Positions 8,910 to 51,800 of a stretch of DNA of 64,000 nucleotides are shown here, one piece after another. The notes below the pieces were generated by a model. The model ran no database searches and was not told the origin of the DNA. It was given only the letters and a program-made list of their open reading frames with translations. How positions within the stretch are numbered: position 1 is the stretch's first letter; the number at the start of each line of letters is the position of its first letter. Location: positions 1 through 64,000 of IMG/VR virus record IMGVR_UViG_3300023192_002962; one strand, 5' to 3'. The DNA comes from a virus. The position numbers and the translations under genes were made by a program.

Positions 8910-9661
8910 TTGTATCTAAAAATCAGTTACTTATTAATAAAAGCGGTAAAGTTCTCAAAGCGGGTGAATTAGATAACGACCATCCTCTTTTTTATTTAAC
9001 TACTACTGGATTTAAATCTACGAATAACTTTAAAATATCAAATGTTAAGTGTTCTTCTCTTTTTAAATACTCTACATCACACGGAAGAACCCTAAGCGTA
9101 GCTGAAGATACAAAAGTAATCAGGTCACTAGGTAAGCACTTTATAGATTTAAGCTCGGCATTTGTAGATAATTACAGAAAAATACATTACTGGTTACGAA
9201 CATTAGTGTGTACAAAGCTACCCGTGTTTGGACAGGTAACGCTTAATAAAAAAGATATAAGTTATTTATGTAGTTCAATTCTTTTTAAGCAACACACTAT
9301 ACCTAATCAACATAGGTACTTCACACAAACATTTCCCCATTTTTTATCAGAACTAACAGATAAATCATTGTCCAGAGTCTTCACATACTTAACTAAGTGT
9401 AATCGTATTAAGCATATGGATGAAGATAGCAAAGATTTTCTTATTATGTTATGTTCTCGTGTAGGAATTGATATTAATGGAAAGGTTCTTGGGCATCGAT
9501 CTTCTGTAAAGAGCGGGAGTTTGATTTTGAATAACGTTACTGATAAGATAACTAGACACGAAGTAATAACGCCTATAGAGCGTATAGAATCAACTGAAGC
9601 TATTAAAATAGAAAGTGAGATTGATAATTTGTTAATAGGAAGCATTTTGTGCAAAATTTAA
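8897..9661 (+). CDS. unidentified protein with an intein-like (Hint) N-terminal pattern
   Basis: This 254-aa protein begins at GTG, overlapping rpsU. Residues about 10-85 read like the N-terminal part of an intein: LLINKSGKVLKAGEL, then YSTSHGRTLSVAEDTKVI, which lines up with the block B pattern (T-x-x-GR-x-L-x-V-T-x-DH) of the nearby terminase intein, with the histidine replaced. A later piece (DEDSKDFLIMLCSRVGIDI) resembles the end of a LAGLIDADG domain. There is no initial cysteine and no terminal His-Asn, so it could not splice. It may be a free-standing intein relic. It overlaps the terminase start by 13 bases. Confidence 0.45.
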   Translation: MGQIVVSKNQLLINKSGKVLKAGELDNDHPLFYLTTTGFKSTNNFKISNVKCSSLFKYSTSHGRTLSVAEDTKVIRSLGKHFIDLSSAFVDNYRKIHYWLRTLVCTKLPVFGQVTLNKKDISYLCSSILFKQHTIPNQHRYFTQTFPHFLSELTDKSLSRVFTYLTKCNRIKHMDEDSKDFLIMLCSRVGIDINGKVLGHRSSVKSGSLILNNVTDKITRHEVITPIERIESTEAIKIESEIDNLLIGSILCKI

Positions 9662-31328: not shown

Positions 31329-31937
31329 ATGGATATATCAAAGAAAATAGCCGAATGGAAAGCCAAATATGGTTCAGTCTTTATAGTTTCTATTGAAGAT
31401 AAGTCCATTTATTATAGAACATTAACTGCTTGGGAAATCCAAAGTATAATTGATCTCACTAAACAAAACAAAGCTTCCTTAGATATAGAAGAGTCTACGT
31501 GTTTATTTGGAGTATTAGCTCCTAGTCCTTTACCTACCTTTAGTAAACCTGGCAGTATTTCCAGTTTAAGCGAAGAGATTTGGAATAAATCAACTCTGTC
31601 AGCTGATATTATGGCAAAAACTATAAAGGATAGTAGAGAGTGGAGTGAAAGTAGCGTAGACCAAAATTATAATTTAATTATAGCAAGTGTTATGTGTAAG
31701 CTAATGCCCTCGTTAGACTTAGCTCATCTCTTGGAGTTACCTACCACTAAACTTGTAAGGCTGGGAGCAATAGTAGAAAAGATAACAGGAGAACAATTCT
31801 TAGAAGGAGAATTACTTAGTAAACAGGGAACTAAGAAAAGCATGGGTTCTGATAGAGTTACTAATGAAATGGCAGATAAAACAGCAAATCTGTTGGCGAA
31901 TGCTCTTAAACAGCAAAGAACAAAGGCTAAGATATAA
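31329..31937 (+). CDS. putative tail assembly chaperone 2
   Basis: This 202-aa protein begins with a region related to the previous gene (residues about 8-40) and has a longer helical C-terminal part (LAHLLELPTTKLVRLGAIVEKITGEQFLEGELL). It starts directly after the terminator without a clear ribosome binding site and passes into the giant gene by TAATG. By position it should help hold the tape measure protein before tube polymerisation. The product is named by context. Confidence 0.55.
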   Translation: MDISKKIAEWKAKYGSVFIVSIEDKSIYYRTLTAWEIQSIIDLTKQNKASLDIEESTCLFGVLAPSPLPTFSKPGSISSLSEEIWNKSTLSADIMAKTIKDSREWSESSVDQNYNLIIASVMCKLMPSLDLAHLLELPTTKLVRLGAIVEKITGEQFLEGELLSKQGTKKSMGSDRVTNEMADKTANLLANALKQQRTKAKI

Positions 31938-34900: not shown

Positions 34901-37900
34901 GGTTTAGGATGGGATAAAGGAAGATTTAGTACACCAGGAGAAGTGATTGGATTACAAGGTAGAAGACTTGCCACATTTAGTGCAGCTTTATTGGGGTATA
35001 GTGCCGTAGACAGCGTTACAGATGCCTCTGGCGCATTTGATGGGACATTTTTAGATGAAGGACTAACAGTTGGATTAGCCGATCAGGCAGTACGTTTACG
35101 AATGCTAGCTGCTAAAACTTATGACGTACTTGGAGTAGATAATGCGGCTAGGTATATGGAAGGTCTTATGCCTGGTTCTATGAATGTGTTACCAGGGCTT
35201 GCTATTGGCGGCCTGGCCGGAGGCATGGTGGGCTCCGGGATTCCAGGAGCTATTGTTGGAGCCATGGTTAATGCCTATTTAGGGCCTCAATTAAAAGAAG
35301 GTCCTTTAAGTTTTTTATCTATAGCGCCCCCACTTGCTCCATTTGTTTCAGATTTAACAAAAAGCTATGATGAAGTTCAAGATATATATGAAGGAAAAGA
35401 ATTACTTGCTAGAAGAAAAGGAGCTGGATGGACATTAGGACAAACTCCTATAGAAGGTGGCCGCATAGAAGGATGGGAGCTTCATTGGTACCCAAAGCTA
35501 AAATCCCAATATAAAGCAACTCCAGTTCTTTATGGCTCTAAGGTAGAACAATTCTTAGCAAAAGATGTACCCTTATTAGATTTTTCTATAATGGATATAA
35601 TCGATCCTCAATATTTAACATACAAGCATTATGAAAATAGACCATACTTAATACCGGATACCCCCTTTACAGAAGTTCCAATTATTGGACCAGTACTGGG
35701 TGCTACTCTAGGTAGGGCTTATAATTTAGTGCATCCTTTAGGTCAGGTGGATCCAATGCATGTGCAAGAGGCTGCATCGGCCTTTATGAAAGGAAACAGT
35801 TATGATTGGAAAGGTGGTGCACAGGACACGTTTGGTCCTCAATACCGAGGACTAGGGCCTGCAGGTGTTGGTTTAGCGGACAGGCAACCAGGACAACCTA
35901 ATATAGGTAATATAGTTCTTTCTCCTTATGATATTAAACCATTGTTGGCAGAATCAGTATATAAAGGATGGATAGAGTGGATGGGGTTACCTGGATTTAT
36001 AACATCAGCAGTAGCCTGGGGAGGGGATGAACCTTTTACTAATGTTCCTATTGCCCCTGCTGCTACTGATATGGATTCTTTTGCTAGATCTTATTGGGAT
36101 TCTAATGCTGGAGATATGGCGTTAACTAATGAATTGTTTAGAAGATTTGTTCCTAGACCTAGAACTAGTTATGAAACTGTAGATCTTATACATAATGCTA
36201 TGCCTGGTTGGATACCTGAACATTTACGGACTGGAGATCCCTATTGTTTACTACCGGATACTTTAGTAGAAACTACTAATGGTTTAACTAGGTCTGAAGA
36301 TATTACAGATGGTATGCTTGTTAAAACTATGTATGGAAGATTTTATCCAGTAAGTAATACTGTAAGTAGGCCTGTTGAGGAGGAAATATATTGTATAACT
36401 TTGCCTGGATTAAAAGATTTTGAACTAAAAGTAACAGGGGAGCATCCTTTTTATATAAAGCAAGGCGATGAGTATAAGTGGGTTTTAGCTAAAAATCTTA
36501 CAACAGAGCATAGAGTAACTTATCCTTTGTTACAAATACAATTAAATAATATAATAGACACTAATATTGAAATAGATGTTGAAGCTAAAATGGCTAAGCT
36601 CCTAGGTTTATTAGCTAGATGGACTAAATGGGGAAGTACCTTAGAGTATAGAGATGAAATCCCCGATAACATAACTAAAGAAATTGATAGTCTTGTAAAG
36701 CTATTGTCAATAGATTTAGAATTAATTAAGACAATAGTTTATGAACATCAGAGTGATGGAATGGCTGTTCCTTTAGTAACTTCAGATTTAGCTATAGTTT
36801 TAAATTATCTAGAACCGTTTAGAGTAAAATCTAGTACTAATGAAATAAAATATAGATTTCATTCTCAAAAAGCTGCTTATAATACGTGGACTGGTCTGTT
36901 ACAAAATAAAATATTTTCGTTTATTAATAATGATACTTTGACTATACGGAATCAATTTGCTGCAGAGATTGCATATTTATTGGATATAGATATTAAGGTT
37001 ACTGAATTTGAAAAGCCCTATTGTTCATTTAGCTTAGTTGATAGTAAAGTAGGCCCATTAGCAATCTTGTCTATAGAGAATATACGTAAAGAATATTATG
37101 AAGGCAATGTACACACTATAGAAGTATCAGATGATGTTACCTATTGTCTTCCGGGAGCTATTGTTCATAATAGTAAAATTACCCATGGAGAATTATATTT
37201 ACCAGGGGAAGGATATGAAGCAGCTTTTAATCCAGATCTAACATTCCCTGTAGGAATGTCCCGACTCGGACGTTCGGCTTATGACCAAGCACTGGGCATG
37301 ATAGGACTGTCTAATATCGCAGAAGACCAAGAGGAGATTTTAGAAAAGGGTACGGCTATTCACAAAATGGTACAGAATCAGCTAATGATGATGGGCGCTA
37401 CTACTAGAATTGAAGCGTTAGTTACAGATCCTAGCGCTAATCTCAGATCTTATGTGGATGTAATGTTAAAAGATCCTAGAGGTAACGAAATGCCTCTTGA
37501 AATTAAGAGTATATCTGCCAAAGGCTTTGAAAGATTAGATAGACCAAAATATTCGCATAAAATTCAGTTAAATTCTTATCTAGCAGTTATGGGAGTTAAC
37601 AGGGGTAAATTTTTATATGTATCTCGAGAAGATCCAACAAAAACAAAGCAATTTAGTTTACAATTTGATCCTGATATGTGGGAACAAACATTAGGTAAGT
37701 TACGTGAAGCCAGATATCTTGCTCAAGAGTTCTTATCTCAAGGTTACGGTAGGGCTGCTGAAGGATACTCATATCTGGATAGAGCTAGAGTTTTATTAAA
37801 CTCAGCTCCTTATTCAAAAGAGTACCGTGAAACATTCTCATTGCTTGAAGAACAAAAAGTTAGTGGACATTTGTCAGAACAAGAATCAGCACAACTGAGT

Positions 37901-39805
37901 AATTTAGAAGGTTATCACAAGGCAATGATGAGAAAGTATGAGATGTATCCTAGAAGGTTTACATTAGATAAACTTTTAGATCCGGATGCGGAGTATCAAA
38001 ATCTATCCTCCAATGAATATATAGAACCAGCAGATACTTATTCATTAGCTGAAAGAATAGCTGGTGCTTCATGGGAGTATGCTACCCATCTTAGATCTCC
38101 TATACATTCAAAATTATTTGGAAGATACTCTCCAGAGGAACAGTATGATAGATTTGTAATGTATGGTGTTCCTTTTCAATCATGGGCAAGACCTTATGAT
38201 ACTTTTTTGAAACCCTATGCTAGGGGACTAAGGTCCGTTACTGATCCATTGCAAGGAGCTATGTCTTTTGCAACGGGAGGATTAATATTTGGAGGAGGCC
38301 CTGGGGCCTTAGCTGGAGCAGCAATAGGTGCTGCTTATGGGTCGATGCACGGAATGTATAGAGCAATTACTGGTGACACGTATCGCCCACAGAACTTTAA
38401 AGATAAGGTAGAGATGCAAGAGTACTTTGATACAATTGAGTATATGAAAGCTGAGCAAATGTATATGGCTACAGGAAATCCAGATTATAGACGACAAATG
38501 GTAGGGACAATGAGAGGTTGGATTGAAACAAGTGGTGGTCAGTTTATGACAGTACCAAATAGTGGAGGTATACAGGGCCATTATGGATATGATCCTGGAA
38601 GTTTGTTTGGAACCTCATCAGGACCAGCAGCCAGAGCTGCAAGGTTAATGAATAATCCATATGCCCAAGGAATTGGGACTGATCAAGGGTTCGGATCACC
38701 GTGGAAGGGATTGGCTAATGTTTATCGTCGATTATTTAAAAGTGAAAAAACAATAAAAATATTTAGAGGAGTTGATAAGTGGCATAGAGGACAAATGGTA
38801 CAACAGGGTAACTTTGTCGGAGGAGGAAAATATACTCAAAGTAGTCGTGCCCCTGCATCTCCGATGTATATACCTAAATCTGAAACAGCACTATATACTT
38901 CCGGTAGTGCTAAAGATGCAATGTCTTACGGAAGACGAGGCAGACGACCTGGAGCTCCTGAACCAACGTTGCTTGAATTTGCTGTTCCAGAAACATATGT
39001 TAGCAAAGCTGCAGTACAAATTAAAGGTCGTGATTTTAGTCATTATGTTTTTGACGAGGGCATACCTAAACGTTTTTTAAGGAGAGTCTATTCCCCAAAA
39101 ACAAGCCCCCAGAGTAGAGCCTTAAAAAAAACACAGAATCCAGCAGCTAAGAGTATAGGTGGAGACAAAGGTTTTGGATCTCCGTGGCAGGGAACAGATG
39201 ACCAAGAAGCTCTTAACTATGATGCAAATATTAATGTATTCAGCGGCTTCTCTGCTTTAGCTGCTTGGGATAGACCTTTTTGGACAGCATTCTTAGAGAC
39301 TCCTGAAGATAAAAGAGATAGAATATTAGATCAGGTAGATACACGAATGGGTGATATGCTAAAAATTGCATGGGGCAGAGGTGAAGAAGTTGCAATGCCT
39401 TCAATGGATGTGTTTTTTAGTAATTATAAAAAACCGTCAGCATTAGAACCAATAATGGGACCTGATACTGATATATCTGATTATATTACCGTTACTGCCA
39501 ACTCAAGCGGACTAGATGCTCATGATTTTGGTTTTGGATGGAGAGATCAATTAAGACGAATTCAAGATTCTGCTAATGCGATTTTACCGATTAATATTCA
39601 TGGAAAAGACACTCCTGCCTTTGAAGCATCGGCAGTGTCACAGGGGGACATAAGTACCGCTTTAACAAAAGTACTAACAAGGATGGGATATGAAGGAGCT
39701 AGAATACAAGTAAACTCTATGATGTCCGAAAGAGATGATACCATTCTTAAACTTAATATAAGACGAGATTCAAGTATAGATATTATAAAGGCGTTATATG
39801 GCTAG
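31937..39805 (+). CDS. giant virion protein in tape-measure position with intein, PD-(D/E)XK nuclease and possible ART domain
   Basis: In this 2622-aa protein (about 2313 after splicing) a hydrophobic segment lies near residues 30-46. Glycine zippers lie at about 1089-1117 (IGGLAGGMVGSGIPGAIVGA) and 2112-2135. Residues 1437-1745 are an intein. Just after it comes a Cas4/RecB-type nuclease: GTAIH with H1809, D1841 (YVDVML), E1855-x-K1857 (PLEIKSIS) and Q1877-x3-Y1881 (HKIQLNSYLA). Residues about 2273-2390 look like an ADP-ribosyltransferase fold and are bracketed by a direct repeat. Gene order says tape measure; the enzymatic content says ejected protein; it may be both. It overlaps the previous and next genes. 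Confidence 0.8.
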   Translation: MATDDYIDDLVNPEEQGESTIAKGIGQAATTLGMFMGIHMAAMFIVTKGKMRAFSALQKSTIPRIRAAATRAATTTHSLTDFIATVGQGKGTVSRLAQSVYASSTSKTAETLRAGWKDISAYEKIGKFRELSRANKTTIVERSAGKYLREAAVFMPSFYIAEHNIGILHDGPEKEAKPAWYNLPGHAIGFAKFVPHMLAIDLGFRGVLHGAKIAASPLRGMLDPLEHSIANSPIADAAVDAYKWAERGAYREKQIAGMKIGDIIDHMGVAKDAFVKSLKSPTRTKMWRRDKEVFSGYERTTNSLYKVYTHHRQHIKVLRSQLYTKKLERYDKRIQKAGLTTEESFRHNFSDFVKFMDEPGISGRTDYQEALYKSNRAASGNELLGKQYYNENAKTPFIARILGLKRAKASDYKAGEKTLGKIYDTASKDKWNEGTDTILGKRKKDFVSKLLSNNTFIQERSGQSVNLDYLDPRYWATKGLNSFPTILGYGVIDLFPFKVMTRRPGDRVMLASGQVPLTPSQQTDAFGRKLFQKESRAGELHVTYKNVYNFSSEFNDGSRGLIMRRAGDKHYSLWDFQGSQGANVADGWVQVGKNIKLALRSDSPKGQRVHYEGLVSATDKNTRMPGEFSSNPFMRFMQEKLSLLDNKGSFPSIFRNLQMVMPEGMQNFFNVSDAVRGSRSRKILEDLKKLSQHKVDDIVQSSHKQMQMLDIVNRTKALSERVRRRSFDSTLSDDYFFNDIIKFLDTNMPGDFLKGKKIRSVDDIFDLASHIRRNVGESNLNMSERELLRVDALLNEARLSKDVLRREVHPELPVEKLKRFIYDYSVNFSRTNNLGKHGIEERMLNKAIKAFENQRITKQQLTDLEVSIFSTDFREVIRDTDFSKGRLLEKIGKDDVSKVIDSIKKGLVNKFSGAADGRSVIDTALANTGMFETAYSKAIDTGIPDLIDTLQLTMDSNPWVAYPTGFKEVLGLGLRWGISTVDKLVSSFGLGWDKGRFSTPGEVIGLQGRRLATFSAALLGYSAVDSVTDASGAFDGTFLDEGLTVGLADQAVRLRMLAAKTYDVLGVDNAARYMEGLMPGSMNVLPGLAIGGLAGGMVGSGIPGAIVGAMVNAYLGPQLKEGPLSFLSIAPPLAPFVSDLTKSYDEVQDIYEGKELLARRKGAGWTLGQTPIEGGRIEGWELHWYPKLKSQYKATPVLYGSKVEQFLAKDVPLLDFSIMDIIDPQYLTYKHYENRPYLIPDTPFTEVPIIGPVLGATLGRAYNLVHPLGQVDPMHVQEAASAFMKGNSYDWKGGAQDTFGPQYRGLGPAGVGLADRQPGQPNIGNIVLSPYDIKPLLAESVYKGWIEWMGLPGFITSAVAWGGDEPFTNVPIAPAATDMDSFARSYWDSNAGDMALTNELFRRFVPRPRTSYETVDLIHNAMPGWIPEHLRTGDPYCLLPDTLVETTNGLTRSEDITDGMLVKTMYGRFYPVSNTVSRPVEEEIYCITLPGLKDFELKVTGEHPFYIKQGDEYKWVLAKNLTTEHRVTYPLLQIQLNNIIDTNIEIDVEAKMAKLLGLLARWTKWGSTLEYRDEIPDNITKEIDSLVKLLSIDLELIKTIVYEHQSDGMAVPLVTSDLAIVLNYLEPFRVKSSTNEIKYRFHSQKAAYNTWTGLLQNKIFSFINNDTLTIRNQFAAEIAYLLDIDIKVTEFEKPYCSFSLVDSKVGPLAILSIENIRKEYYEGNVHTIEVSDDVTYCLPGAIVHNSKITHGELYLPGEGYEAAFNPDLTFPVGMSRLGRSAYDQALGMIGLSNIAEDQEEILEKGTAIHKMVQNQLMMMGATTRIEALVTDPSANLRSYVDVMLKDPRGNEMPLEIKSISAKGFERLDRPKYSHKIQLNSYLAVMGVNRGKFLYVSREDPTKTKQFSLQFDPDMWEQTLGKLREARYLAQEFLSQGYGRAAEGYSYLDRARVLLNSAPYSKEYRETFSLLEEQKVSGHLSEQESAQLSNLEGYHKAMMRKYEMYPRRFTLDKLLDPDAEYQNLSSNEYIEPADTYSLAERIAGASWEYATHLRSPIHSKLFGRYSPEEQYDRFVMYGVPFQSWARPYDTFLKPYARGLRSVTDPLQGAMSFATGGLIFGGGPGALAGAAIGAAYGSMHGMYRAITGDTYRPQNFKDKVEMQEYFDTIEYMKAEQMYMATGNPDYRRQMVGTMRGWIETSGGQFMTVPNSGGIQGHYGYDPGSLFGTSSGPAARAARLMNNPYAQGIGTDQGFGSPWKGLANVYRRLFKSEKTIKIFRGVDKWHRGQMVQQGNFVGGGKYTQSSRAPASPMYIPKSETALYTSGSAKDAMSYGRRGRRPGAPEPTLLEFAVPETYVSKAAVQIKGRDFSHYVFDEGIPKRFLRRVYSPKTSPQSRALKKTQNPAAKSIGGDKGFGSPWQGTDDQEALNYDANINVFSGFSALAAWDRPFWTAFLETPEDKRDRILDQVDTRMGDMLKIAWGRGEEVAMPSMDVFFSNYKKPSALEPIMGPDTDISDYITVTANSSGLDAHDFGFGWRDQLRRIQDSANAILPINIHGKDTPAFEASAVSQGDISTALTKVLTRMGYEGARIQVNSMMSERDDTILKLNIRRDSSIDIIKALYG
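36245..37171 (+). other. intein in the giant tape-measure-position protein
   Basis: A 309-aa insertion that begins CLLPDTLVETTNG (block A) and has block B (FELKVTGEHPFYI) with the conserved Thr and His. It ends with VHTIEVSDDVTYCLPGAIVHN before Ser (blocks F and G). Between B and F lie about 190 residues. A piece reading AKLLGLLARWTKWGS resembles a LAGLIDADG helix that has lost its acidic residue, so the homing nuclease is probably dead. The splice residues are intact. The insertion sits a short distance before the nuclease domain. Confidence 0.9.
38651..39193 (+). repeat. direct protein repeat bracketing the ART-like domain
   Basis: Copy 1 (38651-38710, residues 2239-2258) and copy 2 (39137-39193, residues 2401-2419) share the pattern N-P-x-A-x-x-I-G-x-D-x-GFGSPW-x-G. 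The spacing is 486 bases (162 codons). Codon choice differs between copies, so the duplication is old. The domain between them could have been inserted by recombination at such a linker. Confidence 0.8.
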
Positions 39806-42800
39806 AATAAATGATATAGAACAAGAACCAATATTTTCTCCTACCTATAAAGATCCGGAGAGAAGGGCATTAAGCTTAGGTATTCTTTTATCTCTTCCTA
39901 CATTATTAGGAATAGTACAAAGTAGAGCTAAATTAATAAAAGGTGGTGTCTTTCAGAGTATAGCGAAGGCCAAGAGTGTACTACTTAAACGGATTGAGGC
40001 ACTAGCTAATACTCGGCAAGCCGCTCTTGGTGAAATTGGTTCCTCAATCTCAGAACAACTTAAGGCAAATACTGATTTAATAAATAATCTTATTAGTGAT
40101 CATAGTGCTGCAGAATTACATTTTGGAATTGCGGGTGGTCGTCCTTATAAAGTTACTGGACCGGGTAGCTTGTTACAACAGGAGCTATTCACAGGATCAG
40201 CCACCTGGGACACTGCGCAGCATAATCTATTAATAAAATCGAAGGACGTAGCTCATGCTAAGTATAAAACTGCGCTAAGTGATTGGTGGTTTGGTAATAT
40301 GCAATTTACAGATAAAAGAGGAGCTTATGGGCAGGTCCGGGACAGTATCCTCTCTTTTCAGGGAAACTATCTGAAGCATACTCCTCGTAAATTGGAGGAG
40401 TATCTTGTAAATGTTCACGATGTTGTGCATAGAATATTATTACCGAGATGGCAGAATGGGTATGCTCCAGGAACATCGTATGATATAAATTTAAAAGGCG
40501 CATTAATTGAAAAAGATATTCCTATACATAAAGATTTAGTACAGGCAGCTAATGACTTGGCTGAAGCCCGAAGAAAGCTTGCTGACTTTCATGGCAATTA
40601 TCAATGGTCAGGAGAACAAGTACATAAAAGATTAATAGAACTTGCTGCACAAGAAACTAAATCCCAAATAGGTGAGGGTTCTGGTTTTGGACCTTGGAGT
40701 AAACCTTCGAGATTTTCTGCATTCGATAAGGGCGCATTAAATCCTGAGTTTATGTCTATGTTAAAAAATGATGAGTCGTATCGTCTAAATTTTTATAAAA
40801 ACTTAGAAGCTCTTTATAATAGAGTAAAAGGGAATACAATAAATCTTCCTCCTTGGGCAACAGGGGTTTCTAGTGAAAATCCATTTATTTTAAGTGATAC
40901 GATGACTGCGGAATCTACTGACTTTAGAAATAAGTTATTCCCAGGTAGAGAAAATTATAGTTTTACAAATGCCTCGGTAACAGAATTAACAGAAAAATTA
41001 GAAAGCAGAAATACTGGTTTAACTAAAGAACAAATGAAACATGTTTTGAGTCCGGAGAGATGGGGAGCTTATCATGACTTTCATAAAAAATCATTCGAGA
41101 GCATTGATCCTGTTTTTGCTGAACAGGTCCATGGACAACGAGGAAAAGCCCAACATCTAATAGCAGTAAGAGATTCTTTTCAAGCAGAAGTTAATAAGAT
41201 AAAACGGAATGTAGTTGACCTGCTCAGTATGGAAAGAACATCAGGGAATCCAGCATACACTGCCCATATAGAGGCTTTAGCAGAGGCAGCAGGTATGGAG
41301 AGAAATCAGTATATTACTTTTATAGAGGGGTTAAAAATAAAAGCTGAAATTGGAGCTGATCTTAGCGGAAGAATGCCCTTTAAACATGCTAAGATTATAA
41401 TCATCAGACCAGGACATACACCCATTCCATTAAACATTCCATTATCAGAATATGGAGCTTTTTTACCAAAAGCAAATTCTAAAATAAACACTTCTCCTTT
41501 GTTTTTAGATGCATTTGTACAGCCTACCATACAAAATCTTACATCTATAGATGTAGCTATGATGAAAAAAATGCAAGTTAATGTTTCACATTATTTCAGA
41601 GATCTAGTACAGTCAGGGTATCAAAGTTCTGAAAAGGTACAGGGTCTTCATAAAAGTTATTGGGGATCATTTACGTCACTAGTACATACTGAAGTTGCTG
41701 GAATTAATCAGAACTTTTTTAGACGACAGAAAGTAGTTTCTTCAACTCTGGATATCCTAAGAGGTGCAGTAAAAGAAAGTGGAGTAGGATCAAGAAGATG
41801 GTACGCTAAGTTTACTGCAGGCTGGGAAGCATTACAAGAGATACAAAATATAAGTAAGAGACAATCCACAATTTTAGGTTTAGATTTTGAATTCAATGCT
41901 TCTAAAACCTTAGGCTTTGATGCAATTCAAGGACTAGTGGCAAAGGAAACTACTCGTCCTTATCAGGCTGCTTATCAAATAACTAGAGGGTCTAAAAAAC
42001 AATTATTTAATCATTGGATTAGACCAGATAACTGGGATAATATACGGAATAATGTAAAACGATTTATGATTCAACAAGAAGGTATGGGGGGAATGATTGA
42101 GTATTCTAAATTAGAGGCTATAATGCAAGGAGCACAGGATCCTCTTTCTAAAGGAGAGGCAGTTGTAGATTTTAGTATTGGATTTGATGAGCAGGAGAAA
42201 AATTGGAGATTTTTTACCGATGAACAAAAAATAGATAAATCTATATTTAAAAAAGGATCTATTCAATCTGTTAGAGTTCATACGGAAGCCGGTTCTTTTG
42301 TTGAAATAGCTAGAGAAATATTTAGATCACCTGATGGAGGTATCAAGTTTTTAACTCATGGAGGAGAAGAGGCAGATCTTATCTTATGGAATAAAAGAAT
42401 AACTGGTATATTAGAAGAAATTAAACGAGGAAGAGACTTTGGCATAAGTGAGGGTGAGATAGGGTTGCTAAAAAGATTACATAAGGAAACCTCATTAACT
42501 AGTTTGTTAGCAAGAGGAGCATCTTTTGATACCCACTCAATGGCAATGGTTGTTTTAGCAGAGGAGGCAGGCAGCACTAAGTTTGGATTAACTGATATTT
42601 TTCATAAGCTTCTTACCTTATCTGTAGATACTAAATTAGTTACTAGAGATGACGTAAGTAATGCTTTGAAAGCAATTGGAGGAGAAATAAAAGAGGGAAA
42701 ATTGACAAAAGCAGGTAAAGCTGCATTAAAGGAATTTCCATTAACCGTACGTAATTCAATAAAACAACATATTCAAGCAAGTCCTCATGTTGTAAAAGAG

Positions 42801-45800
42801 CTATTATCTATGGGATTAGCAGGGCATCATAATCCGGCCTTTGATAATATGATTACAGATTTCAATTCTCTACTGTCAGTACAGCATTATCAAAGAACAA
42901 AAATTTACAATCCAGAACTGTTTACTCGATGGGTACAAGCATATGAGGTTGCTAAACGAATAACAACCGGAAGATCGTTATCTTCGTTCCAGGCTATAGA
43001 CGTAGTCAGACAACATGAAATGTTTGATCCTGATAGAATAAAAAGAGAGGGTGAATTTAAATTATCTTTATTTGGTGGAACTCCTGCATCAGCCGCACAA
43101 GCTCATGGCTATTTAACTGGACCAGAAACCTATTTGCCTTTTGGAAGATTAGCTAATTTACAGAAGCAGACTCAACAAGTTATGAGTGGAAGATTACTTC
43201 CTACTTTAGATTATACGGCAAGTAAAGATGTTATGATTGAAACAGCTAAACCTATTTTAGGCCATAGACTGTTAAGTACATCTCAACAATTTTATGCTGA
43301 GGAAGATGCAAGGCTGGGAGTGTCTGCTAATAGATTTGGACTACAAGTAGCGCCCTCAGACCGAGGTGCACCTGGTCTTACTACTAGACGTACTTTATCC
43401 GTACTCTATTTATTAGGAGATAATAGAATTGTAGGAGAGGACTCTGGGCTTTGGGCTAGCAAAGAAGCTATGAAAAATGCTATTAATTTTCCTAGAAGCG
43501 CTTTTGAGGCAGTAAAGGTAGATATTCCAACAGGATTGCTTAGTAGTACAAATTTAGATAAAATGAATATGTCTCTTTATGATTTTATGCAGTCAATAGG
43601 TATTAGCGAAAGAGTTATAGAAATAACAAAGCGTAAAATAGGAGAAGATATGTCGCTTAGGGCCTTTATAGAGGCCCATAGTCAGCAAGGTGGAGTTGCA
43701 AAAGAGCTATATAGTTCTGAAGAAGCTATAATTAGGGAAGCTACTGAACATTTTAATAAAACAGGAAAGGACTACATAAGACCTGGAGATCATATAGCGA
43801 TAGGAAAAGGTCCAGTAAATTTACAAGTAGAACAGACCGGTCAAAGATTAACTACTATTACTAGAAGTCCTATTAGTAATCCATTTAATTCAGATGCTCT
43901 TATAAAATCTATCACTTATGATACTGAAAAAAATCAATTTATATTTAATCTTCTAGGAATAAGTAGACCTAGTATTTCTAAGTGGACATTTCAATTAAAG
44001 ACAGCAAAGCCAATGCTAGTTGGGGTTGCTAACAATACTTTAGTAGGAAAAGGAATTGATTTAATAGTTGCAATGAAAAAACCGGATGCTGCTCAGACGT
44101 TAAACATTCAAATACGTAGAGTATTACAGCATATGTACAGAGAACGACTACCAATAGAGGTACAAGTAAAGAGAATGAAAGAAGTTCTGATGAAATCATT
44201 TAATTTGGATTCTGCAGAGCTAGATGCTATGTTTACTATTCGCAAAAGTCCTATTTTGGATGCTAGTCAACGAGAATTATATAAGAGTTCGTTTTTAGCT
44301 ACTGTTGAATTGAAAGATCCAACTGTTGCAAAGTTAGATAGTACTAATATTTATCCTAAAGTAGCTGCTCTATTAAAAGAGCAAGGTTTAACTATTAGAA
44401 GTATGCAAAAGATTTTTGTTGAGCAACATGCCGATGTCTTACAAGAAATATTCACTGATCTTAAACTTCCTGAAATTAAATCAGAACTTAGTAGTTTATA
44501 TAGAAAAGCTATAAATTTACATAAAGAAAGCTTAAATAAATGGATAAAATCTAATCAACATATGAATATTGCAGGTCACGAGGGGTTTCATAGATTTATA
44601 GCTGCATCAAAAATGAGAGAAATATTAGGGAAGGGCTTGGCTTTTCACGACATGGCACTACTACCAAACAGAAGTGCTATGTTAGATGTATTAAATAAAA
44701 ATAAGCAGCTAGGGCAAAGGCAAATACTTAAAGATGTTTTTACAAAAATAACAGAGCATGAAGTTGTAAATGAAATGTTCTTTGCTAATGCAGCATTTTT
44801 AGTTGTTGATGAAGGAGTTTTACTGGAAGATTTATCTGATGTATCTAAATATAAAGGTACACTTAAGAATTTTTACGATACCCCTACGCAGAAATCAGGA
44901 AGTTTTTCTTTATGGGAGATGTTAGTACGGATGGAGGCAGTTAAGGGCTCTAAGTTTGCTAATAAGTATATGATTCCTGAAATGATATCCTCCATGGGTT
45001 GGTATAATACTAATATCAGTTCATCATTAAGTGTTCATAGTAAGTTTCTAGATATGTTAAAGGAGGGGTACAATGCTCCTTCTACTATAACTAGTGATCA
45101 GATTTATACCCCAGGAATGGCGGCCTTAGGACACGATATATCTATTTATAGATCTTCTATGCTAGGTGTATCGGAATTAGATGAATTAGTTAAAGAAGGT
45201 CTTTTTATTAAAAAAGATATAGAAGTTTTATTAAGTGATTCTAAACTAATGCTTATTTTGAAGCAACAGTTAGGTGAGGCTTTTGTGGATAGTCATGAGT
45301 TTCAGACAAGAAGAGAATCATATATATCAGCGTTACGAGATCGTATTCAACGAGGTACAGGAAAGGGTTTTCTTTCTGGGGAAAACTTAGGTAAGATGAA
45401 TATATTTAAAACAGATAAAGGTGTCAATTATATTAAATTTGGTCTTCCTGATATAATGGCTGCTATTGAAAAAAGTGAATCTATCAGCCCTGAATTAAAA
45501 ACACGCTTAAGAAAAACAGATTTATTTAGAAATGAGAAAAGTGTATTCTTTTCAAAACTAAGAGTTGCTCTGGAAGGAGTAGAAAGTAATCAAATGGAAC
45601 GCTCTATGTTAGCCAAAATAGATTGGCTTAATGTTGACAAAGGATTTCCTAATACTGCATTAGAAGATACATTAGCGAAACTAGAAGTTGCACTATCTGA
45701 TCATGATAATCCTAAGAAACTTAGAGATCTTTTAGTTAATTTAGGAGAGCTTAAGGCGAGCTCAGCTTCAAAGCTGAAGGACAAGAACCTATGGGAACTT

Positions 45801-48617
45801 GCTAATAACTATAAACAAAGAGTAGTTTCTGGCCGAGAAGGACGACTAGCAGAAGTAATGTTTCCTCATTTAAAACATGAGTTTCCATTACCAGTAGGAG
45901 ATCAGTATCTAATTACAGATGAAAGTGCTGCAAAATTAAAAGTAGCTAGTGCTATAGAAAGTTATCAAACACAAATAGATAAAATTGTAAAAGATCTTGA
46001 GCAAGAAGGAAGATCTCTTAAATCCTATGAAATTAATGATAGGCTTTCTGAAATACAATCTTCCCACGAAGCATTTATGAGGAAGTTAGCTACAGGCCAT
46101 ATTAGTGCATTGAAAGGATTATCAAGTGCATCCTGGAAAAGTCAAAGAGCTTATGCTCCAATTATGTATGCCAAAGCAGTGGATGTTGGTATTTTATTAG
46201 AGCAAGGACTAGGTGGACTATTAGCTGACATCAAAGATAAAAACATAAAAGGAATGGATATAAACTTCTTTGATAAGAAGATTGCATCCCCTAGCAATCC
46301 TATAATGGAAGCTATTAGAAGTAATAAATTTAGAACACTCATTAAAGAAGCTCTTCTTTATCAGGGTAGTGATCCAACAACCGGTGAAGCTATTCTCAGC
46401 CTGGTAGGGGAAGAAGAAGCTAGAAATATACAAAGATTGTCTTCTGAAATATTCAAACACTCTAAGGACAGCGTTACCTGGGGTGAATATTTAGGAAATA
46501 TTTTAGGAATAGAACATAAACTAGGACTGAGTAATAAACTTTTGAATAATTTATCATTATATAAGGAGATAGGTACAACAGGTTATAAGCATTACTTTGC
46601 TAAAGGTTTTGGTATAGGCGAAGGCATTATGTCCCATAGTATGTTTGCATCCTTTCTTGAAAAAGGAAATCCAGGAGCTTTATCCATGGTACGGAAACCA
46701 GACTTGTTTAGAAGTGTACTAGCGGGTAAGTCTCCTATTAGAGAGATGTTTGCACGAGCTCCTTTATTTGAGAACTGGTTTGGTGCACGGTTACGTAATG
46801 TTTACTTAATGCCTGATAAAATTTTTGAGCAGATGCACCTTGATCCTAGAGATACTAAACGAATGGTGGCTGTGAGTGCACTGGATATCTTTCTACACGG
46901 TGGTGACTTTGATGGGGACTTGGCTAATTTTATGATAAATAACTCTAGTATGTATCGTAGAGAGTATTTTGGAAAAGATGCAGCATGGACCGGAGAAGTT
47001 AATGATGTGCAAAGAGTTAAGCAATGGTTGAATTTTAGAGTGCAACAAGCCGGTAGGGGTGCTCTTACAATCCAGGGACAGGACTATATTGGAATAGAAG
47101 AAACAGCAGATGGAAGACTACTTGTTCGGCACGATTCTAAGGAAAAGTTTGATTTTACTAAAAAAATGGAATTTTTAACCGAACAGATGGATGATCCTAT
47201 GAAAAACATGTCTCATGCTGAAAAAAATAGAGTGTATATGGTACAACAAGTACTAACACCTGTCTTTGGACAAAAAGCAAAAATGTTTCATCATTCTTTT
47301 CTTCCTACAGGTGGGATTGATCCTGCAATGAAAAACGAAGTAGTGCAACGTATACAGGAAACTATACGGAAACATTATAAAGATCCTAAAATTTTGCAGG
47401 ATTTGTTAACTGAATTAGGACATTTACAAGATATAAAACCGTTGTCTCATGCTGAGTTAAAACTACAAGCTTCAAGGTACTTGGATAGTATAACTAATGC
47501 ATGGGAAAGACTCCAACGAGAATCAACAATACCTTTATATGAACAAGTTATAACACAAGATGGAACTAAGCAAAACCCTAAAATTTCAACTACAGTAAGA
47601 CCAGGTACTATGAAGAAATCACGATTTGCTATGTTCTTTGATTGGCACAATAAGGCCATGATCCACGGTGTCCCAATAGAGAAAGCGAAAGCAGGACAAC
47701 TTAATGATTGGTATAATATGACTGTTCAGTTTTCAAAGTTAATGTCTGGAGACAATCTTAGAGATACTAAGAATATTCATAGGTATTTCTGGGACACAAG
47801 TCCATTTACAGAGCTTAATCTGAGCACATGGTTTGTTAATCCAGGAGCGGATCATGGTATTCCGGAACATAAAGTATTGGAGATACAAGGCTTAGCGTTT
47901 ATGGAAACACAAGAGACGTTTGAAGATATAATGAGACTTAAGCAAGCGGAGCGAGCTGTGTCTAAATCTTCTCTTCTCGGAGGACTTAAGTCCGCAGCAT
48001 ACTGGACGCTTTCAAAAAATCCTAGAAATGCAATATATGGAGCTCAGGTTGATCTATTAAGTGAGCAGAAAAATTGGATACACAGCGGACTGACTTCTTT
48101 GCTTGGAGTTGAACGAGCTGGTATGATTACAGATGCAGAAAGTGCGGCGTTTTTTACTATGCGATCATTTGAAGAAAGAATGGCCGGAAATAGGGCCGGT
48201 ACAGAATCAATGATTAATTGGTTAAAACAGTATATGTCAGAAGGAAAAATAAATAAATGGGGAAAGAGAGCATCCGTAGGAGTTCTGGCAGCGATCTTAT
48301 TTGATCCAAATGCAAATTCTTTATTGCTTCCTGATTTAGAAGTTAATGGGGAAAAATATGACATACCTTCATTTAGGGAGCTAAGTAAATCTTACAGGAA
48401 TAGACTCATGAAGATCAGAAGTACCTCCCCTCCTGTAATAGATAAACTTCTTAGAACATTTGGTTTACCGAATAGTGTTGGTGCTCGAGCTGTGCACGGA
48501 CCCCCTTTACCTCCTAGACCTAATAGGGTCTCGTACTCTTATAGAGAACGTAGAGATAAAATATTAGGTATTAAAGAATATGCCAGAAAAGTTAATGGTA
48601 TAATGTTAGGACAATAA
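39798..48617 (+). CDS. giant protein with two-barrel RNA polymerase signature and DnaQ-like exonuclease signature
   Basis: In this 2939-aa protein residues 2370-2374 read DFDGD in the context FLHGGDFDGDLANF, the magnesium-binding loop of beta'-type RNA polymerase barrels. R2320-A-P lies 50 residues before it, as in the RAP/RQP segment of beta' (35 residues before). Upstream, GEDSGLWASKEAM (E1214, D1215) and LVGVANNTLVGKG (K1418) resemble, in this order, the ED and lysine segments of the beta barrel; this part is weaker. Residues 693-699 (LGLDFEF) and 1010-1018 (HHNPAFDNM) match exonuclease motifs I and II of the DnaQ family, though unusually far apart. Known single-chain virion polymerases of crAss-like phages (gp66) are the nearest concept. 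It overlaps the previous gene by eight bases. Confidence 0.8.
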   Translation: MARINDIEQEPIFSPTYKDPERRALSLGILLSLPTLLGIVQSRAKLIKGGVFQSIAKAKSVLLKRIEALANTRQAALGEIGSSISEQLKANTDLINNLISDHSAAELHFGIAGGRPYKVTGPGSLLQQELFTGSATWDTAQHNLLIKSKDVAHAKYKTALSDWWFGNMQFTDKRGAYGQVRDSILSFQGNYLKHTPRKLEEYLVNVHDVVHRILLPRWQNGYAPGTSYDINLKGALIEKDIPIHKDLVQAANDLAEARRKLADFHGNYQWSGEQVHKRLIELAAQETKSQIGEGSGFGPWSKPSRFSAFDKGALNPEFMSMLKNDESYRLNFYKNLEALYNRVKGNTINLPPWATGVSSENPFILSDTMTAESTDFRNKLFPGRENYSFTNASVTELTEKLESRNTGLTKEQMKHVLSPERWGAYHDFHKKSFESIDPVFAEQVHGQRGKAQHLIAVRDSFQAEVNKIKRNVVDLLSMERTSGNPAYTAHIEALAEAAGMERNQYITFIEGLKIKAEIGADLSGRMPFKHAKIIIIRPGHTPIPLNIPLSEYGAFLPKANSKINTSPLFLDAFVQPTIQNLTSIDVAMMKKMQVNVSHYFRDLVQSGYQSSEKVQGLHKSYWGSFTSLVHTEVAGINQNFFRRQKVVSSTLDILRGAVKESGVGSRRWYAKFTAGWEALQEIQNISKRQSTILGLDFEFNASKTLGFDAIQGLVAKETTRPYQAAYQITRGSKKQLFNHWIRPDNWDNIRNNVKRFMIQQEGMGGMIEYSKLEAIMQGAQDPLSKGEAVVDFSIGFDEQEKNWRFFTDEQKIDKSIFKKGSIQSVRVHTEAGSFVEIAREIFRSPDGGIKFLTHGGEEADLILWNKRITGILEEIKRGRDFGISEGEIGLLKRLHKETSLTSLLARGASFDTHSMAMVVLAEEAGSTKFGLTDIFHKLLTLSVDTKLVTRDDVSNALKAIGGEIKEGKLTKAGKAALKEFPLTVRNSIKQHIQASPHVVKELLSMGLAGHHNPAFDNMITDFNSLLSVQHYQRTKIYNPELFTRWVQAYEVAKRITTGRSLSSFQAIDVVRQHEMFDPDRIKREGEFKLSLFGGTPASAAQAHGYLTGPETYLPFGRLANLQKQTQQVMSGRLLPTLDYTASKDVMIETAKPILGHRLLSTSQQFYAEEDARLGVSANRFGLQVAPSDRGAPGLTTRRTLSVLYLLGDNRIVGEDSGLWASKEAMKNAINFPRSAFEAVKVDIPTGLLSSTNLDKMNMSLYDFMQSIGISERVIEITKRKIGEDMSLRAFIEAHSQQGGVAKELYSSEEAIIREATEHFNKTGKDYIRPGDHIAIGKGPVNLQVEQTGQRLTTITRSPISNPFNSDALIKSITYDTEKNQFIFNLLGISRPSISKWTFQLKTAKPMLVGVANNTLVGKGIDLIVAMKKPDAAQTLNIQIRRVLQHMYRERLPIEVQVKRMKEVLMKSFNLDSAELDAMFTIRKSPILDASQRELYKSSFLATVELKDPTVAKLDSTNIYPKVAALLKEQGLTIRSMQKIFVEQHADVLQEIFTDLKLPEIKSELSSLYRKAINLHKESLNKWIKSNQHMNIAGHEGFHRFIAASKMREILGKGLAFHDMALLPNRSAMLDVLNKNKQLGQRQILKDVFTKITEHEVVNEMFFANAAFLVVDEGVLLEDLSDVSKYKGTLKNFYDTPTQKSGSFSLWEMLVRMEAVKGSKFANKYMIPEMISSMGWYNTNISSSLSVHSKFLDMLKEGYNAPSTITSDQIYTPGMAALGHDISIYRSSMLGVSELDELVKEGLFIKKDIEVLLSDSKLMLILKQQLGEAFVDSHEFQTRRESYISALRDRIQRGTGKGFLSGENLGKMNIFKTDKGVNYIKFGLPDIMAAIEKSESISPELKTRLRKTDLFRNEKSVFFSKLRVALEGVESNQMERSMLAKIDWLNVDKGFPNTALEDTLAKLEVALSDHDNPKKLRDLLVNLGELKASSASKLKDKNLWELANNYKQRVVSGREGRLAEVMFPHLKHEFPLPVGDQYLITDESAAKLKVASAIESYQTQIDKIVKDLEQEGRSLKSYEINDRLSEIQSSHEAFMRKLATGHISALKGLSSASWKSQRAYAPIMYAKAVDVGILLEQGLGGLLADIKDKNIKGMDINFFDKKIASPSNPIMEAIRSNKFRTLIKEALLYQGSDPTTGEAILSLVGEEEARNIQRLSSEIFKHSKDSVTWGEYLGNILGIEHKLGLSNKLLNNLSLYKEIGTTGYKHYFAKGFGIGEGIMSHSMFASFLEKGNPGALSMVRKPDLFRSVLAGKSPIREMFARAPLFENWFGARLRNVYLMPDKIFEQMHLDPRDTKRMVAVSALDIFLHGGDFDGDLANFMINNSSMYRREYFGKDAAWTGEVNDVQRVKQWLNFRVQQAGRGALTIQGQDYIGIEETADGRLLVRHDSKEKFDFTKKMEFLTEQMDDPMKNMSHAEKNRVYMVQQVLTPVFGQKAKMFHHSFLPTGGIDPAMKNEVVQRIQETIRKHYKDPKILQDLLTELGHLQDIKPLSHAELKLQASRYLDSITNAWERLQRESTIPLYEQVITQDGTKQNPKISTTVRPGTMKKSRFAMFFDWHNKAMIHGVPIEKAKAGQLNDWYNMTVQFSKLMSGDNLRDTKNIHRYFWDTSPFTELNLSTWFVNPGADHGIPEHKVLEIQGLAFMETQETFEDIMRLKQAERAVSKSSLLGGLKSAAYWTLSKNPRNAIYGAQVDLLSEQKNWIHSGLTSLLGVERAGMITDAESAAFFTMRSFEERMAGNRAGTESMINWLKQYMSEGKINKWGKRASVGVLAAILFDPNANSLLLPDLEVNGEKYDIPSFRELSKSYRNRLMKIRSTSPPVIDKLLRTFGLPNSVGARAVHGPPLPPRPNRVSYSYRERRDKILGIKEYARKVNGIMLGQ

Positions 48618-48618
48618 T

Positions 48619-48825
48619 ATGAGACGAGTAGTTGAAATAACTCTGCCTACTATTCCCTACGATAAGGATATTTCTGATATAGTAGGTTATCTCCGAATGG
48701 TGCTGTCTGAATTAACAAAAACATCTGTAGAAATCCAAATAAATGATATAGATTTTACAAACAAAATTGGTGTTTTTAATAATAATCGACGTCGTTCATT
48801 CCCTAATAGACAAAATAATATATAA
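48619..48825 (+). CDS. small hypothetical protein between two giant genes
   Basis: This 68-aa protein opens with a strand (RRVVEITLPTIPYDKDI), then has a helix (SDIVGYLRMVLSELTK), another strand (SVEIQINDIDF) and a basic, Asn-rich tail. The start follows the previous stop by one base and the stop overlaps the next ATG (TAATG). It may be a small partner of one of the giants. Nothing identifies it. Confidence 0.6.
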   Translation: MRRVVEITLPTIPYDKDISDIVGYLRMVLSELTKTSVEIQINDIDFTNKIGVFNNNRRRSFPNRQNNI

Positions 48826-51800
48826 TGGCTACTAATCCTACTGATGTTACATTTATAGACCCTGTAGACAAGTCTACTGTAAGACGTAAGTCGTCCGGTG
48901 AATTTAGTCAGATTGATCAACTAAAGGATATTTTTGAGAAACTACGAAAGATTATTTATGAAATAGAAGCAGGGCCAGATGGTTTCAATGCCATGGGTCC
49001 TTCTTTAGATAGTACGTTTACTACTACAAGTACAGCAACAACCGGCTCTATGACTATGCAAGTAGATAGAGGTTTAGGGGCCCAGCAGTTAAGAGTTAGC
49101 ATTATTTCTACTATGATAGATTCTTTGCTAATTCCAAATAGTGTTCATTATACCCCTTTATTAGAATTTAAAGCCAAGATTCTTGATGAATCTTTGATTA
49201 AAAATAATGCAGATGTTACTTCATACTTTTCAGAAGAATGGCAGGTACTATTGCATTATATTTATTTATTAGAAACAATATACTCAGCACATGCGGATAG
49301 TCTTTATCTTGAATTAATTCCTCTTAAGAATGTAGGAGGACCTGGAGCTTATGGTTTAGGAAGTATGAACATGAGCGCCATGGAGGTTCTTAAGTCTAAT
49401 ATTCTGCCTCCTTCTATAGTTTCTATAAAGGTAACTTCTACTAAAGACTATCTCAAGGATGGAACATACCAGAATATTTTAAAAAGTAGACATATTGAAC
49501 CTTTTTATATGACACCTGAGTTAGCAGATAAACTGTTAACAGGTTATACTCTAGAAACTCCTCCCCATACCAGAGAAATGCCACCCATGTTTGCAGATCA
49601 TCATATTAATGTATTTGATGGTACTGGTACAAAGAAGTATTACGCAGCACAGGGCGGTGTAGCGCATAATGCTATAATTTTTATGTTATCTTTTAGTAAA
49701 GCTCCTTCCAAGTGGCTGGAAAATGCTATGGATAATGAGGATGAATTTATAACTCTAGGGGAAGATATTGGAGCAGGGCCGGCTGATTCGCATTTAGATG
49801 TAATCTTATGGAAAGATGCAGCTTCCAGAGATGACCCAGTAAATAGACAGGCCATTCGAAAGATAATAACGACAATATTAGCTAACGGAAGAAAAAATAT
49901 GTCTACTTTAGATGTGGATGATTATGTAATGTCAGTTGAGTCCCGGAAAGAATTCGAATTGTTTATTGACACTTACTTCGTTGAGTTAACTTTGGAGGAG
50001 GCCACAACACCTCCCCCTAATGGTAAATTTTTTATAAATGGAACATGGTTTACGGATACACCTTTGTACCTACATACTTGGGCAAACGCTAATACTCCAG
50101 GAAGTCCAAATTCTGGCAAATTTTGGACAACTACAAATTATGATTATTTACGTAAGACTTCATTGTTTGATAAGTTTTTTATAGGAACTAAATCGTTACG
50201 TCAATTAGCTAATGACGCTGGTAATTATCCTACAATAGGAGAACGCAGAGAAAAGTTTGTAGAATTTATAAACTCTTGGCACCTACTTGATAAACCAAAC
50301 TCTATTAGAGCACTACAGAGCTTAATTGTGGATCATTTTAAAAACAATAGAAGTGCTTTTGCAGATTTAATAAGTTTTGGTGAGTTAAGAAATTTGGTTT
50401 TAGACTATTCGTTACATAATATCTCTCCGACTCATCCTTTGTACGTGCTTGACTCCTATTATAATATGCAGTCAATTACTTTAATAACCCCTACGGCTAA
50501 AATAGAAATAGCAACTCAAGATTCTATAGGACAAGACTTATCCGGTCAAATACAATCTATAGAAAATTCAGAAGTAACTATTAATGTAACTGATAGCTTA
50601 ACTGTTTCGAAAGTTCCAGGTTCAGAAAGCATTTCTCCTATAATAGACCAAAATGAAATAGAAACTTCAGACAAGGATATCTTACCATTTAAAGGTCTAT
50701 TAGTGATGTCTACTATTTCAGCGGCTAATAGTGGAATCGTGTATGAAGTATTAGACAGGTTTGGAACTATATGGAACCAAGGAGAAACTGCAATAACGTT
50801 TGCGATAAAAGATTCAAAAGGTAGTTTAGATCCTGGGAAATTGGGACTCAAAGGGCTGAAGTATGCCACTATCTTTCCGTTCTTTGATGAAAATGGTAAT
50901 TCATTTCCTTATTCAAAAAATTATGCAACTATGACTTGGATAGAAGAAACTAAAAGTCTTTACTTCATTACTCATGATGAATATGGGTTAACACAATTTG
51001 ATTATCATGCAGTAGCTTCAATTACTTTAGAGGATTCTAGTTTTACAGATGAACAGGTACCACAATGGAGAGTTGTTTTTGAGGCATATGAAGCAACAGG
51101 TGCCCATGTTTTTGATTTATATGGAGGACAGTTACTTGTATTTAATATTCCAAATATTCCGCAGGGGGCATTAATAACAGATAGAGTACAGCTCGGTATT
51201 ACCTCTGTACCTAGTTATCCAGAAAAGGTTAAGAGTAAGTTATTTATTCAAGAGACCGAGCCTGTTACGCTAATGACTATTCCTGTTACTCAAAAGTTCG
51301 ATGTTGAATACGATCTCTGGGGCGGCGACGGCTTTAAGAACCCCGATGGTAGTACACCGGTTGTTATGGACCCATCATGGTTTGAGGATAAGGATACTGA
51401 AGAAGAAGCATTAGATGATGGTGGTGGAACTATTTCTCCATCAATAACAACAACTTTCAGTATTGGCAGTAAGGAAGTACCAATTGATGAATATTTAAGA
51501 GTACTAGAAAAAATTCAATTTAATAAGCCCTCAGTTGCAACAGACATTTCAGATATAATACAATATAATACGGAAACGGGTGAATCATTAACCAGATCTA
51601 CTTCACTACCAGCTAAAGCTTTACAAACGGATAGTCAATTTAAATACGTAAGACCTGCTAATCCAGAGGACACTGGAGTAATGTATATTGGTGATATACT
51701 TTTTCATATACCTCCAGTTAATCTGAGGTTCAGCACTGTTAACCAAACAATGTCGATTCCTACTATGAGAACAAAAGGGGATCCTATTAATACAAGTAAT

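Follow-up and report, generated by a model that had tools for sequence, protein, structure and literature searches.

A giant protein in the tape-measure slot of 0305phi8-36-related phages that probably joins a DEDDh exonuclease to a single-chain two-barrel RNA polymerase

Packaged two-barrel RNA polymerases have previously been encountered in short-tailed crAss-like phages, in the flexible long-tailed Thermus phage P23-45, and in phiKZ-type phages with split subunits. The virion enzyme of P23-45, gp96, shares one polypeptide with the tape measure protein (PMC10770324). The subject of this report is P0001, a protein encoded in a 64,000-base stretch of viral DNA (hereafter the window) that forms positions 1 to 64,000 of the 86,116-base virus record IMGVR_UViG_3300023192_002962. 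P0001 is probably a giant virion protein of the lineage of Bacillus phage 0305phi8-36, in which a DnaQ/DEDDh exonuclease and a single-chain two-barrel RNA polymerase are combined and delivered with the DNA.

P0001 resembles P23-45 gp96 as a giant tail protein encoded in the tape-measure slot, with a DFDGD motif, a predicted single-chain two-barrel polymerase and little similarity to other such enzymes outside the motif; it differs in that P23-45 has a long, non-contractile tail and gp96 has an N-terminal polymerase, no reported exonuclease and no clamp. The crAss-like phage phi14:2 likewise packages a single-chain two-barrel polymerase within a giant protein, gp66, encoded with other giant virion proteins, yet such phages are short-tailed, the gp66 motif reads DFDID, and no sequence relation to P0001 is detectable. 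YonO of SPbeta and gp99 of 0305phi8-36 are also single-chain two-barrel polymerases, but both are stand-alone enzymes rather than virion giants, and gp99 lies elsewhere in its genome. The phiKZ-type virion polymerase is again a packaged two-barrel enzyme of myoviruses, although its beta and beta′ parts are split over several polypeptides. A preliminary description of the window had already set P0001 apart from the short-tailed crAss-like phages and the split phiKZ-like enzymes, and this contrast holds: a tail sheath gene is present, which does not fit a crAss-like short, non-contractile tail, and the whole protein is encoded by a single open reading frame (ORF) with no division of subunits over several genes. 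The P23-45 precedent and the putative exonuclease at residues of about 690-1020 had been overlooked.

Searches with P0001 itself (Pfam, PHROGs, PDB and phage tblastn) retrieve nothing beyond near-identical contigs and match no database family. One near-identical gene copy, in L098/L002 (contig 3300028607_003725), has a 6-residue insertion near protein residue 54. More distant relatives were found via the portal, where one alignment of six portals led to 76 loci. The lineage so outlined consists of contractile-tailed phages related to 0305phi8-36, with Moorella phage MTATph1, Bacillus phage KLEB27-3 (vB_BauM_KLEB27-3) and Acinetobacter phage ME3 as named relatives; a locus of 218,948 bases (L193/G018) we take to be 0305phi8-36, from its RNA-dependent RNA polymerase (RdRP)-type gene and its gene layout. 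Most sampled relatives have a gene for a protein of 2290-2990 amino acids just before a hub-like gene, and this slot gene is itself preceded by a giant homologous to the 1930-residue protein of 0305phi8-36. An all-against-all search separated the slot proteins into family A (P0001, G008, G009, G005, G015 and G013) and family B (KLEB27-3 gp034, G020, G022 and G023); tblastn then added sequences on 200-240-kilobase (kb) Bacillus-group plasmids to family B. The similarity of P0001 to G008 and G009 has E-values of about 1e-158, to G005 of 4e-18 and to G015 of 4e-7. Further family-A members recovered by scans amount to a handful of loci, all viral contigs and none in bacterial genomes. The KLEB27-3 protein is annotated as a "structural protein", and the plasmid genes of family B as "hypothetical protein".

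The P0001 gene and its C-terminal, beta′-like features are as follows.
39798..48617, plus strand: P0001 gene, ATG start, 2939 amino acids; exonuclease-like, beta-like and beta′-like (DxDGD) segments in that order
46587..47057, plus strand: residues 2264-2420, candidate beta′-type barrel region from profile comparisons
46755..46763, plus strand: R2320-A2321-P2322, equivalent of the NRAP motif; [RK]xP occurs in 5/5 family-A members
46905..46919, plus strand: residues 2370-2374, DFDGD, putative catalytic loop recognized from the sequence, its aspartates invariant in family A
47253..47270, plus strand: residues 2486-2491, LTPVFG, candidate bridge-helix motif (LTGPIG and FTGQIG in relatives, IGxxxN in family B)
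47670..47690, plus strand: residues 2625-2631, VPIEKAK, candidate start of the trigger loop

The frame is uninterrupted by stops, so that all parts lie on one polypeptide. The DFDGD signature reported in the preliminary description is real; it lies in FLHGGDFDGDLANF, at residues 2365-2378 rather than a few residues away at 2357-2377 as first given, with R-A-P exactly 50 residues N-terminal of D2370, the first aspartate. Composition alone would yield DFDGD 0.001 times and DxDGD 0.025 times in a protein this long, and the three aspartates are retained in relatives with 19-29% identity; for both reasons the motif is not attributable to chance. In nearly all slot relatives DxDGD occupies the same relative place, near residue 1850-2370. 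Its variants in family A are GGDYDGDLV (G008), RGDYDGDLV (G009), ADWDGDL (G005) and SDLDGDQ (G015); elsewhere they are ADYDGDF (KLEB27-3 and G020), ADNDGDF (G023), DYDTD (G022), GDFDGDN (a Cytobacillus plasmid), ADSDGDY (B. licheniformis and relatives) and GDADGDQ (Paenibacillus). The slot proteins of MTATph1 and 0305phi8-36 lack it. The likeness of VPIEKAK to IDFPK stretches of gp96 and gp66 is not used as evidence, the motif order of gp66 being different.

The RNA polymerase reading draws its support from family B, whose profile matches RNA polymerase largest subunits, and from family A, which keeps the same active-site sets. When the DxDGD profile of family B (A11, 8 sequences) was compared with 177,635 PDB sequences, 53 matched at E<=10, and all except one of these (52/53) are largest-subunit chains of the beta′/RPB1 type, led by plant Pol V (0.0011) and phiKZ gp55 (0.0017). 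In Pfam, RNA_pol_Rpb1_2 ranks first or stands alone among the families matched by KLEB27-3 (E 0.0019) and G020 (0.025), and in whole-genome searches its sole match in each genome is the slot gene (7e-5 and 4e-4, respectively), below the Pfam cut-off. Across the eight family-B sequences, 46 columns are invariant over the whole 2434-residue protein, and the 11 within the DxDGD region include R1893-Y-P1895, D1933/D1935/D1937 and the bridge-helix-like pair G2037...N2041. In family A, five members cover the region, and they have 13 invariant columns in a fragment of roughly 300 residues, four contributed by D-x-D-G-D and a fifth by the proline of [RK]xP.

For family A, residues 2266-2400 of G008 match 114 positions of an RpoC-like profile (20.9 bits). 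As a control, the seven motif residues were kept while the flanks were shuffled in 500 copies, and the copies reaching the real score were counted. For G008 none of the 500 did so; the counts were 26 for P0001, 52 for G009, 21 for G015 and 383 for G005, and among proven enzymes 13 for gp96, 33 for gp66, 186 for gp64 and 188 for YonO. Since these counts are akin to those of the proven enzymes, family A is comparable in this respect to single-chain polymerases already known. In a sliding-window profile comparison only the DxDGD windows paired with RNA polymerase profiles (P 3e-5 to 2e-4, all other windows at least 0.05), and when the search was turned round, with the family-A profile as query, RNA polymerase subunits ranked first among proteins sharing GGDFDGD. 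The best reference polymerases against the family-A barrel profile were P23-45 gp96 and gp64 (P 0.005-0.008), a weak sequence relation. The beta′-type barrel is thus supported directly in family B, by homology and the shuffle control in G008, and by the conserved catalytic residues in P0001.

N-terminal of the polymerase part, at residues of about 690-1020, P0001 carries the residues of a putative DnaQ/DEDDh-type 3′-5′ exonuclease.
41883..41891, plus strand: D696-x-E698 (ILGLDFEF), Exo I motif, invariant in family A, with the equivalent DxE invariant in family B
42375..42377, plus strand: D860, Exo II aspartate, invariant (GHNxxxAD in relatives, THGGEEAD in P0001)
42528..42530, plus strand: D911, additional invariant aspartate ([IM]D[TS]xAxAR in relatives, as TDSLAVAR in DnaQ)
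42828..42845, plus strand: H1011....D1016 (GHHNPAFD), Exo III motif, H and D invariant

The catalytic order D-x-E, D, H-x4-D formed by D696, E698, D860, H1011 and D1016 is invariant in six family-A members, and these positions together with D911 are among 11 invariant columns of the region. The same residues in the same order (DxE, D, D, H(4)D) characterize DnaQ/TREX-type DEDDh exonucleases, which the family-B profile matches; what differs here is that the segment forms part of a giant virion protein which also bears a putative polymerase. A profile of the family-B and MTATph1 segments (A12), with invariant columns D,E / N,D / D / H,D and three others, matched 42 PDB sequences (best 4e-5), all of them DnaQ-type exonucleases or polymerases carrying that domain. 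Within this group Pfam RNase_T reaches 5e-6 and RNase_H_2 6.5e-6, the RNase_T match of MTATph1 CDS0027 lying above the Pfam cut-off, and RNase_H_2 and DNA_pol_B_exo2 match further members. When the two families were compared by profile, the correct exonuclease regions paired (P 0.005-0.01) and wrong ones gave P 0.2-0.5. By sequence, family A keeps the two active-site sets of family B in the same order. WD40 matches of the family-A exonuclease profile were set aside, as a short stretch was summed over repeats and no stretch passes alone; a strong RNase_T match in G015 belongs to a separate 238-residue gene and not to the slot protein.

Between the exonuclease and DxDGD lies a region in which motifs resembling RpoB can be recognized.
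43137..43178, plus strand: residues 1114-1127, PFGRLANLQKQTQQ, suggestive of RpoB ANMQRQ
43434..43448, plus strand: residues 1213-1217, GEDSG, suggestive of RpoB FEDSI
43980..44009, plus strand: K1395-K1404, conserved lysines suggestive of the two lysines of RpoB double-psi beta-barrel B (GDK-x7-NKG)
44043..44120, plus strand: residues 1416-1441, VGKG...KKPDAAQTLNIQIRR, compared with RpoB VDIVLNPLGVPSRMNIGQ; a region common to family B

GEDSG and VGKG (residues 1416-1419) do stand upstream of DFDGD, as had been described. P0001 residues 1356-1469 are common to families A and B (P 1e-3 to 5e-6 by window, controls at least 0.02), and the motif order resembles that of RpoB: PFGxxxNLxxQ, ED[ST], K-x(6-8)-K and [SK]RxxIG, the last comparable to SRMNIGQ. 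Against an RpoB profile built from three sequences, G015 gave its best result in the window where the barrel was anticipated, and hhalign also settled on the anticipated register, at values that are not significant (P 0.14-0.8). Order and spacing at the motif level thus fit a beta-type barrel N-terminal of the DxDGD barrel, which is only suggested. The single-chain two-barrel polymerase proposed in the preliminary description accordingly stands well supported for its beta′-type barrel, and as a suggestion for the beta-type barrel at GEDSG/VGKG, where comparison with RpoB gave nothing significant.

Several results weigh against the polymerase-exonuclease assignment. P0001 matches no RNA polymerase or exonuclease model in Pfam, PHROGs or PDB, the family-A profiles of the DxDGD and exonuclease regions find no RNA polymerase and no exonuclease, respectively, in PDB, and Pfam RNA_pol_Rpb2_6 (PF00562) matches no member. 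In a flank-only test (motif masked, ungapped) P0001 ranked 192 of 2907 and G005 and G015 were unranked, with YonO and other proven enzymes doing no better. GGDFDGD was the criterion by which the reference polymerase sets were chosen, a bias towards the motif. The arginine of [RK]xP drifts to lysine in two family-A members, and the usual HN of Exo II is replaced in P0001 (THGGEEAD). AlphaFold2 models had a mean predicted local distance difference test score (pLDDT) of 39 for residues 960-2159 of the G005 homologue (7 sequences) and 40 for residues 2225-2520 of P0001 (5 sequences), too poor to judge barrels. A Pfam Phe_hydrox_dim match of P0001 (0.005) is below its cut-off and is otherwise unsupported. 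DFDGD might then have arisen by chance, or bind metal for structural reasons, in a giant whose role is purely structural, the polymerase reading being wrong for family A, and the missing database matches of P0001, the models without a barrel and the empty PDB search with the family-A profile could be read in this way. This is unlikely, given that three aspartates are kept at 19-29% identity, that the RpoC-profile match of G008 extends beyond the motif, and that family B, in the same slot and with a beta-like region common to both families, is clearly RNA polymerase-like. Alternatively, P0001 could descend from a polymerase or exonuclease that has lost its activity and persists only as a structural part, as the lost exonuclease residues in the homologous segment of 0305phi8-36 gp146, the separate RdRP-type polymerase of that phage and the missing Exo II HN of P0001 would allow; we consider this quite improbable, because at neither site has P0001 lost a metal ligand, and none of these residues varies within family A. 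An enzyme akin to archaeal PolD, a two-barrel DNA polymerase with proofreading (PMC4996933), would also place a two-barrel catalytic site and a 3′-5′ exonuclease in one chain, and might, once delivered, make DNA or primers instead of mRNA so that replication or repair of incoming genome ends can begin. It is very improbable here, as the family-B matches are to RNA polymerase largest subunits, including the R-x-P motif, with PolD accounting for 0/53.

The surrounding genes bear on how P0001 may reach the cell, and they confirm the virion block and contractile tail of the preliminary description.
9649-11952: terminase (PHROGs, E 3e-27)
14497-16272: portal (PHROGs, E 1e-31)
20246-21613: major head protein (PHROGs, E 1e-10)
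24769..27432, plus strand: tail sheath gene, contractile tail (PHROGs, E 6e-19)
31937..39805, plus strand: upstream giant of 2622 amino acids, homologue of the 1930-residue protein preceding the 0305phi8-36 tape measure
48825..64000, plus strand, continuing past the window: hub-like giant gene, 5143 amino acids in the full record
66648-67832 of the record, just past the window end: baseplate J-like gene (E 4e-32)

By synteny with relatives, the P0001 gene, directly before the hub-like gene, occupies the tape-measure slot of 0305phi8-36, which lies between the tail chaperonin genes and the hub, with one other giant (gp145-like) between the chaperonin genes and the P0001 gene. In 0305phi8-36 this slot (orf146) was assigned to the tape measure mainly from length (Hardies and colleagues, PMC2147016). 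In a stronger form of the explanation preferred here, P0001 would itself be the tape measure, with polymerase and exonuclease built in as in P23-45, so that the enzyme would form the lining of the tail tube and finish up in the cell envelope at the site of DNA entry. This is a serious possibility, held tentatively at somewhat less than even odds. Its gene stands directly before the hub and follows a homologue of the gene before the 0305phi8-36 tape measure (PMC2147016); the MTATph1 protein of this slot, CDS0027, shows homology to gp146 (E 3e-9) as well as to the exonuclease portion of KLEB27-3 gp034 (residues 60-170, E 3e-8); and such a fusion has been proven for P23-45 gp96 (PMC10770324). Against it, gp146 was named mainly from length and position, the 2622-residue giant could be the tape measure instead, and a long helical tape segment is not demonstrated; family A also has no sequence similarity to gp146, which, as tape measures diverge fast, lowers the probability without excluding the idea.

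Several neighbouring features were noted in passing. The 2622-residue giant holds, at residues 1431-1745 and 1797-1930, a segment resembling an intein (Pfam Intein_splicing at 8.5e-4, short of the cut-off) and a match to a Cas4/PDDEXK-type exonuclease (PHROG 1706, 8e-17). Its 4392-residue homologue in G005 (63491-76669, loci L134 and L135) apparently has some five intein-like insertions (CLTERTEV...VHN and similar), which account for most of the extra size. The hub-like protein has about 1900 residues (about 2713-4638) without counterpart in relatives of 2378-2976 amino acids. Plasmids of Cytobacillus, Bacillus and Paenibacillus of about 200-240 kb (L261, L263-L267) carry the family-B virion gene block and are probably phage-plasmids of the 0305phi8-36 lineage. 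The 170,948-base contig G016 contains the portal region twice, in inverted orientation (about 68.6-80 kb and 90.8-102 kb); a palindromic artefact of assembly is the probable cause. Other giant phage ORFs of 2300-4100 amino acids (L056, L022, L108, L087, L099 and others) contain GGDFDGD, several with an R-x-P-like stretch upstream, and these giants of unrelated phages may be further hidden packaged polymerases.

As an exonuclease joined to a virion RNA polymerase, P0001 would most likely be carried in the tail or head, as gene position and the "structural protein" label of KLEB27-3 gp034 suggest, and delivered with the DNA. Its polymerase part, at about residues 1100-2650, would consist of a beta-like half followed by a beta′-like half with the DxDGD metal site at 2370, where the three aspartates of DFDGD would bind the catalytic magnesium ions. 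It would transcribe the earliest genes of the phage without needing the host polymerase, and the exonuclease would probably, as our guess, trim or proofread the 3′ end of the transcript or process nucleic acid at the entry point. KLEB27-3 gp034 and its plasmid relatives, of similar size and in the same slot, have the same order of exonuclease, beta-like region, RxP and DxDGD, although family B is only distantly related to family A. The stand-alone RdRP-type polymerase of 0305phi8-36, together with a slot protein lacking DxDGD, is consistent with an exchange of transcription strategy within the lineage; the absence of an RdRP-type match in other relatives is weak evidence, because that model misses YonO itself.

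Virion two-barrel polymerases are already known from crAss gp66 and P23-45 gp96; new here is the contractile-tail context together with the probable exonuclease fusion. In a literature search of incomplete coverage, P23-45 provided the only two-barrel polymerase found fused to a tape measure, and no two-barrel RNA polymerase joined to a DnaQ-type/DEDDh exonuclease was found. It is a rather doubtful proposition that one injected tail protein serves as tape measure, two-barrel RNA polymerase and proofreading-type 3′-5′ exonuclease together, in which case no earlier RNA polymerase would be known to carry a DEDDh proofreading nuclease on its own chain. Two distantly related families fill the tape-measure slot of this contractile-tailed lineage, which is represented by metagenomic sequences, a Bacillus phage isolate and large Bacillus-group plasmids. 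A DEDDh exonuclease on the chain of an RNA polymerase raises the question of whether the enzyme proofreads or trims its transcripts and, as the lineage is present in a Bacillus phage and in plasmids, the coupling of transcription to DNA entry through the tail is testable in cultivable hosts.

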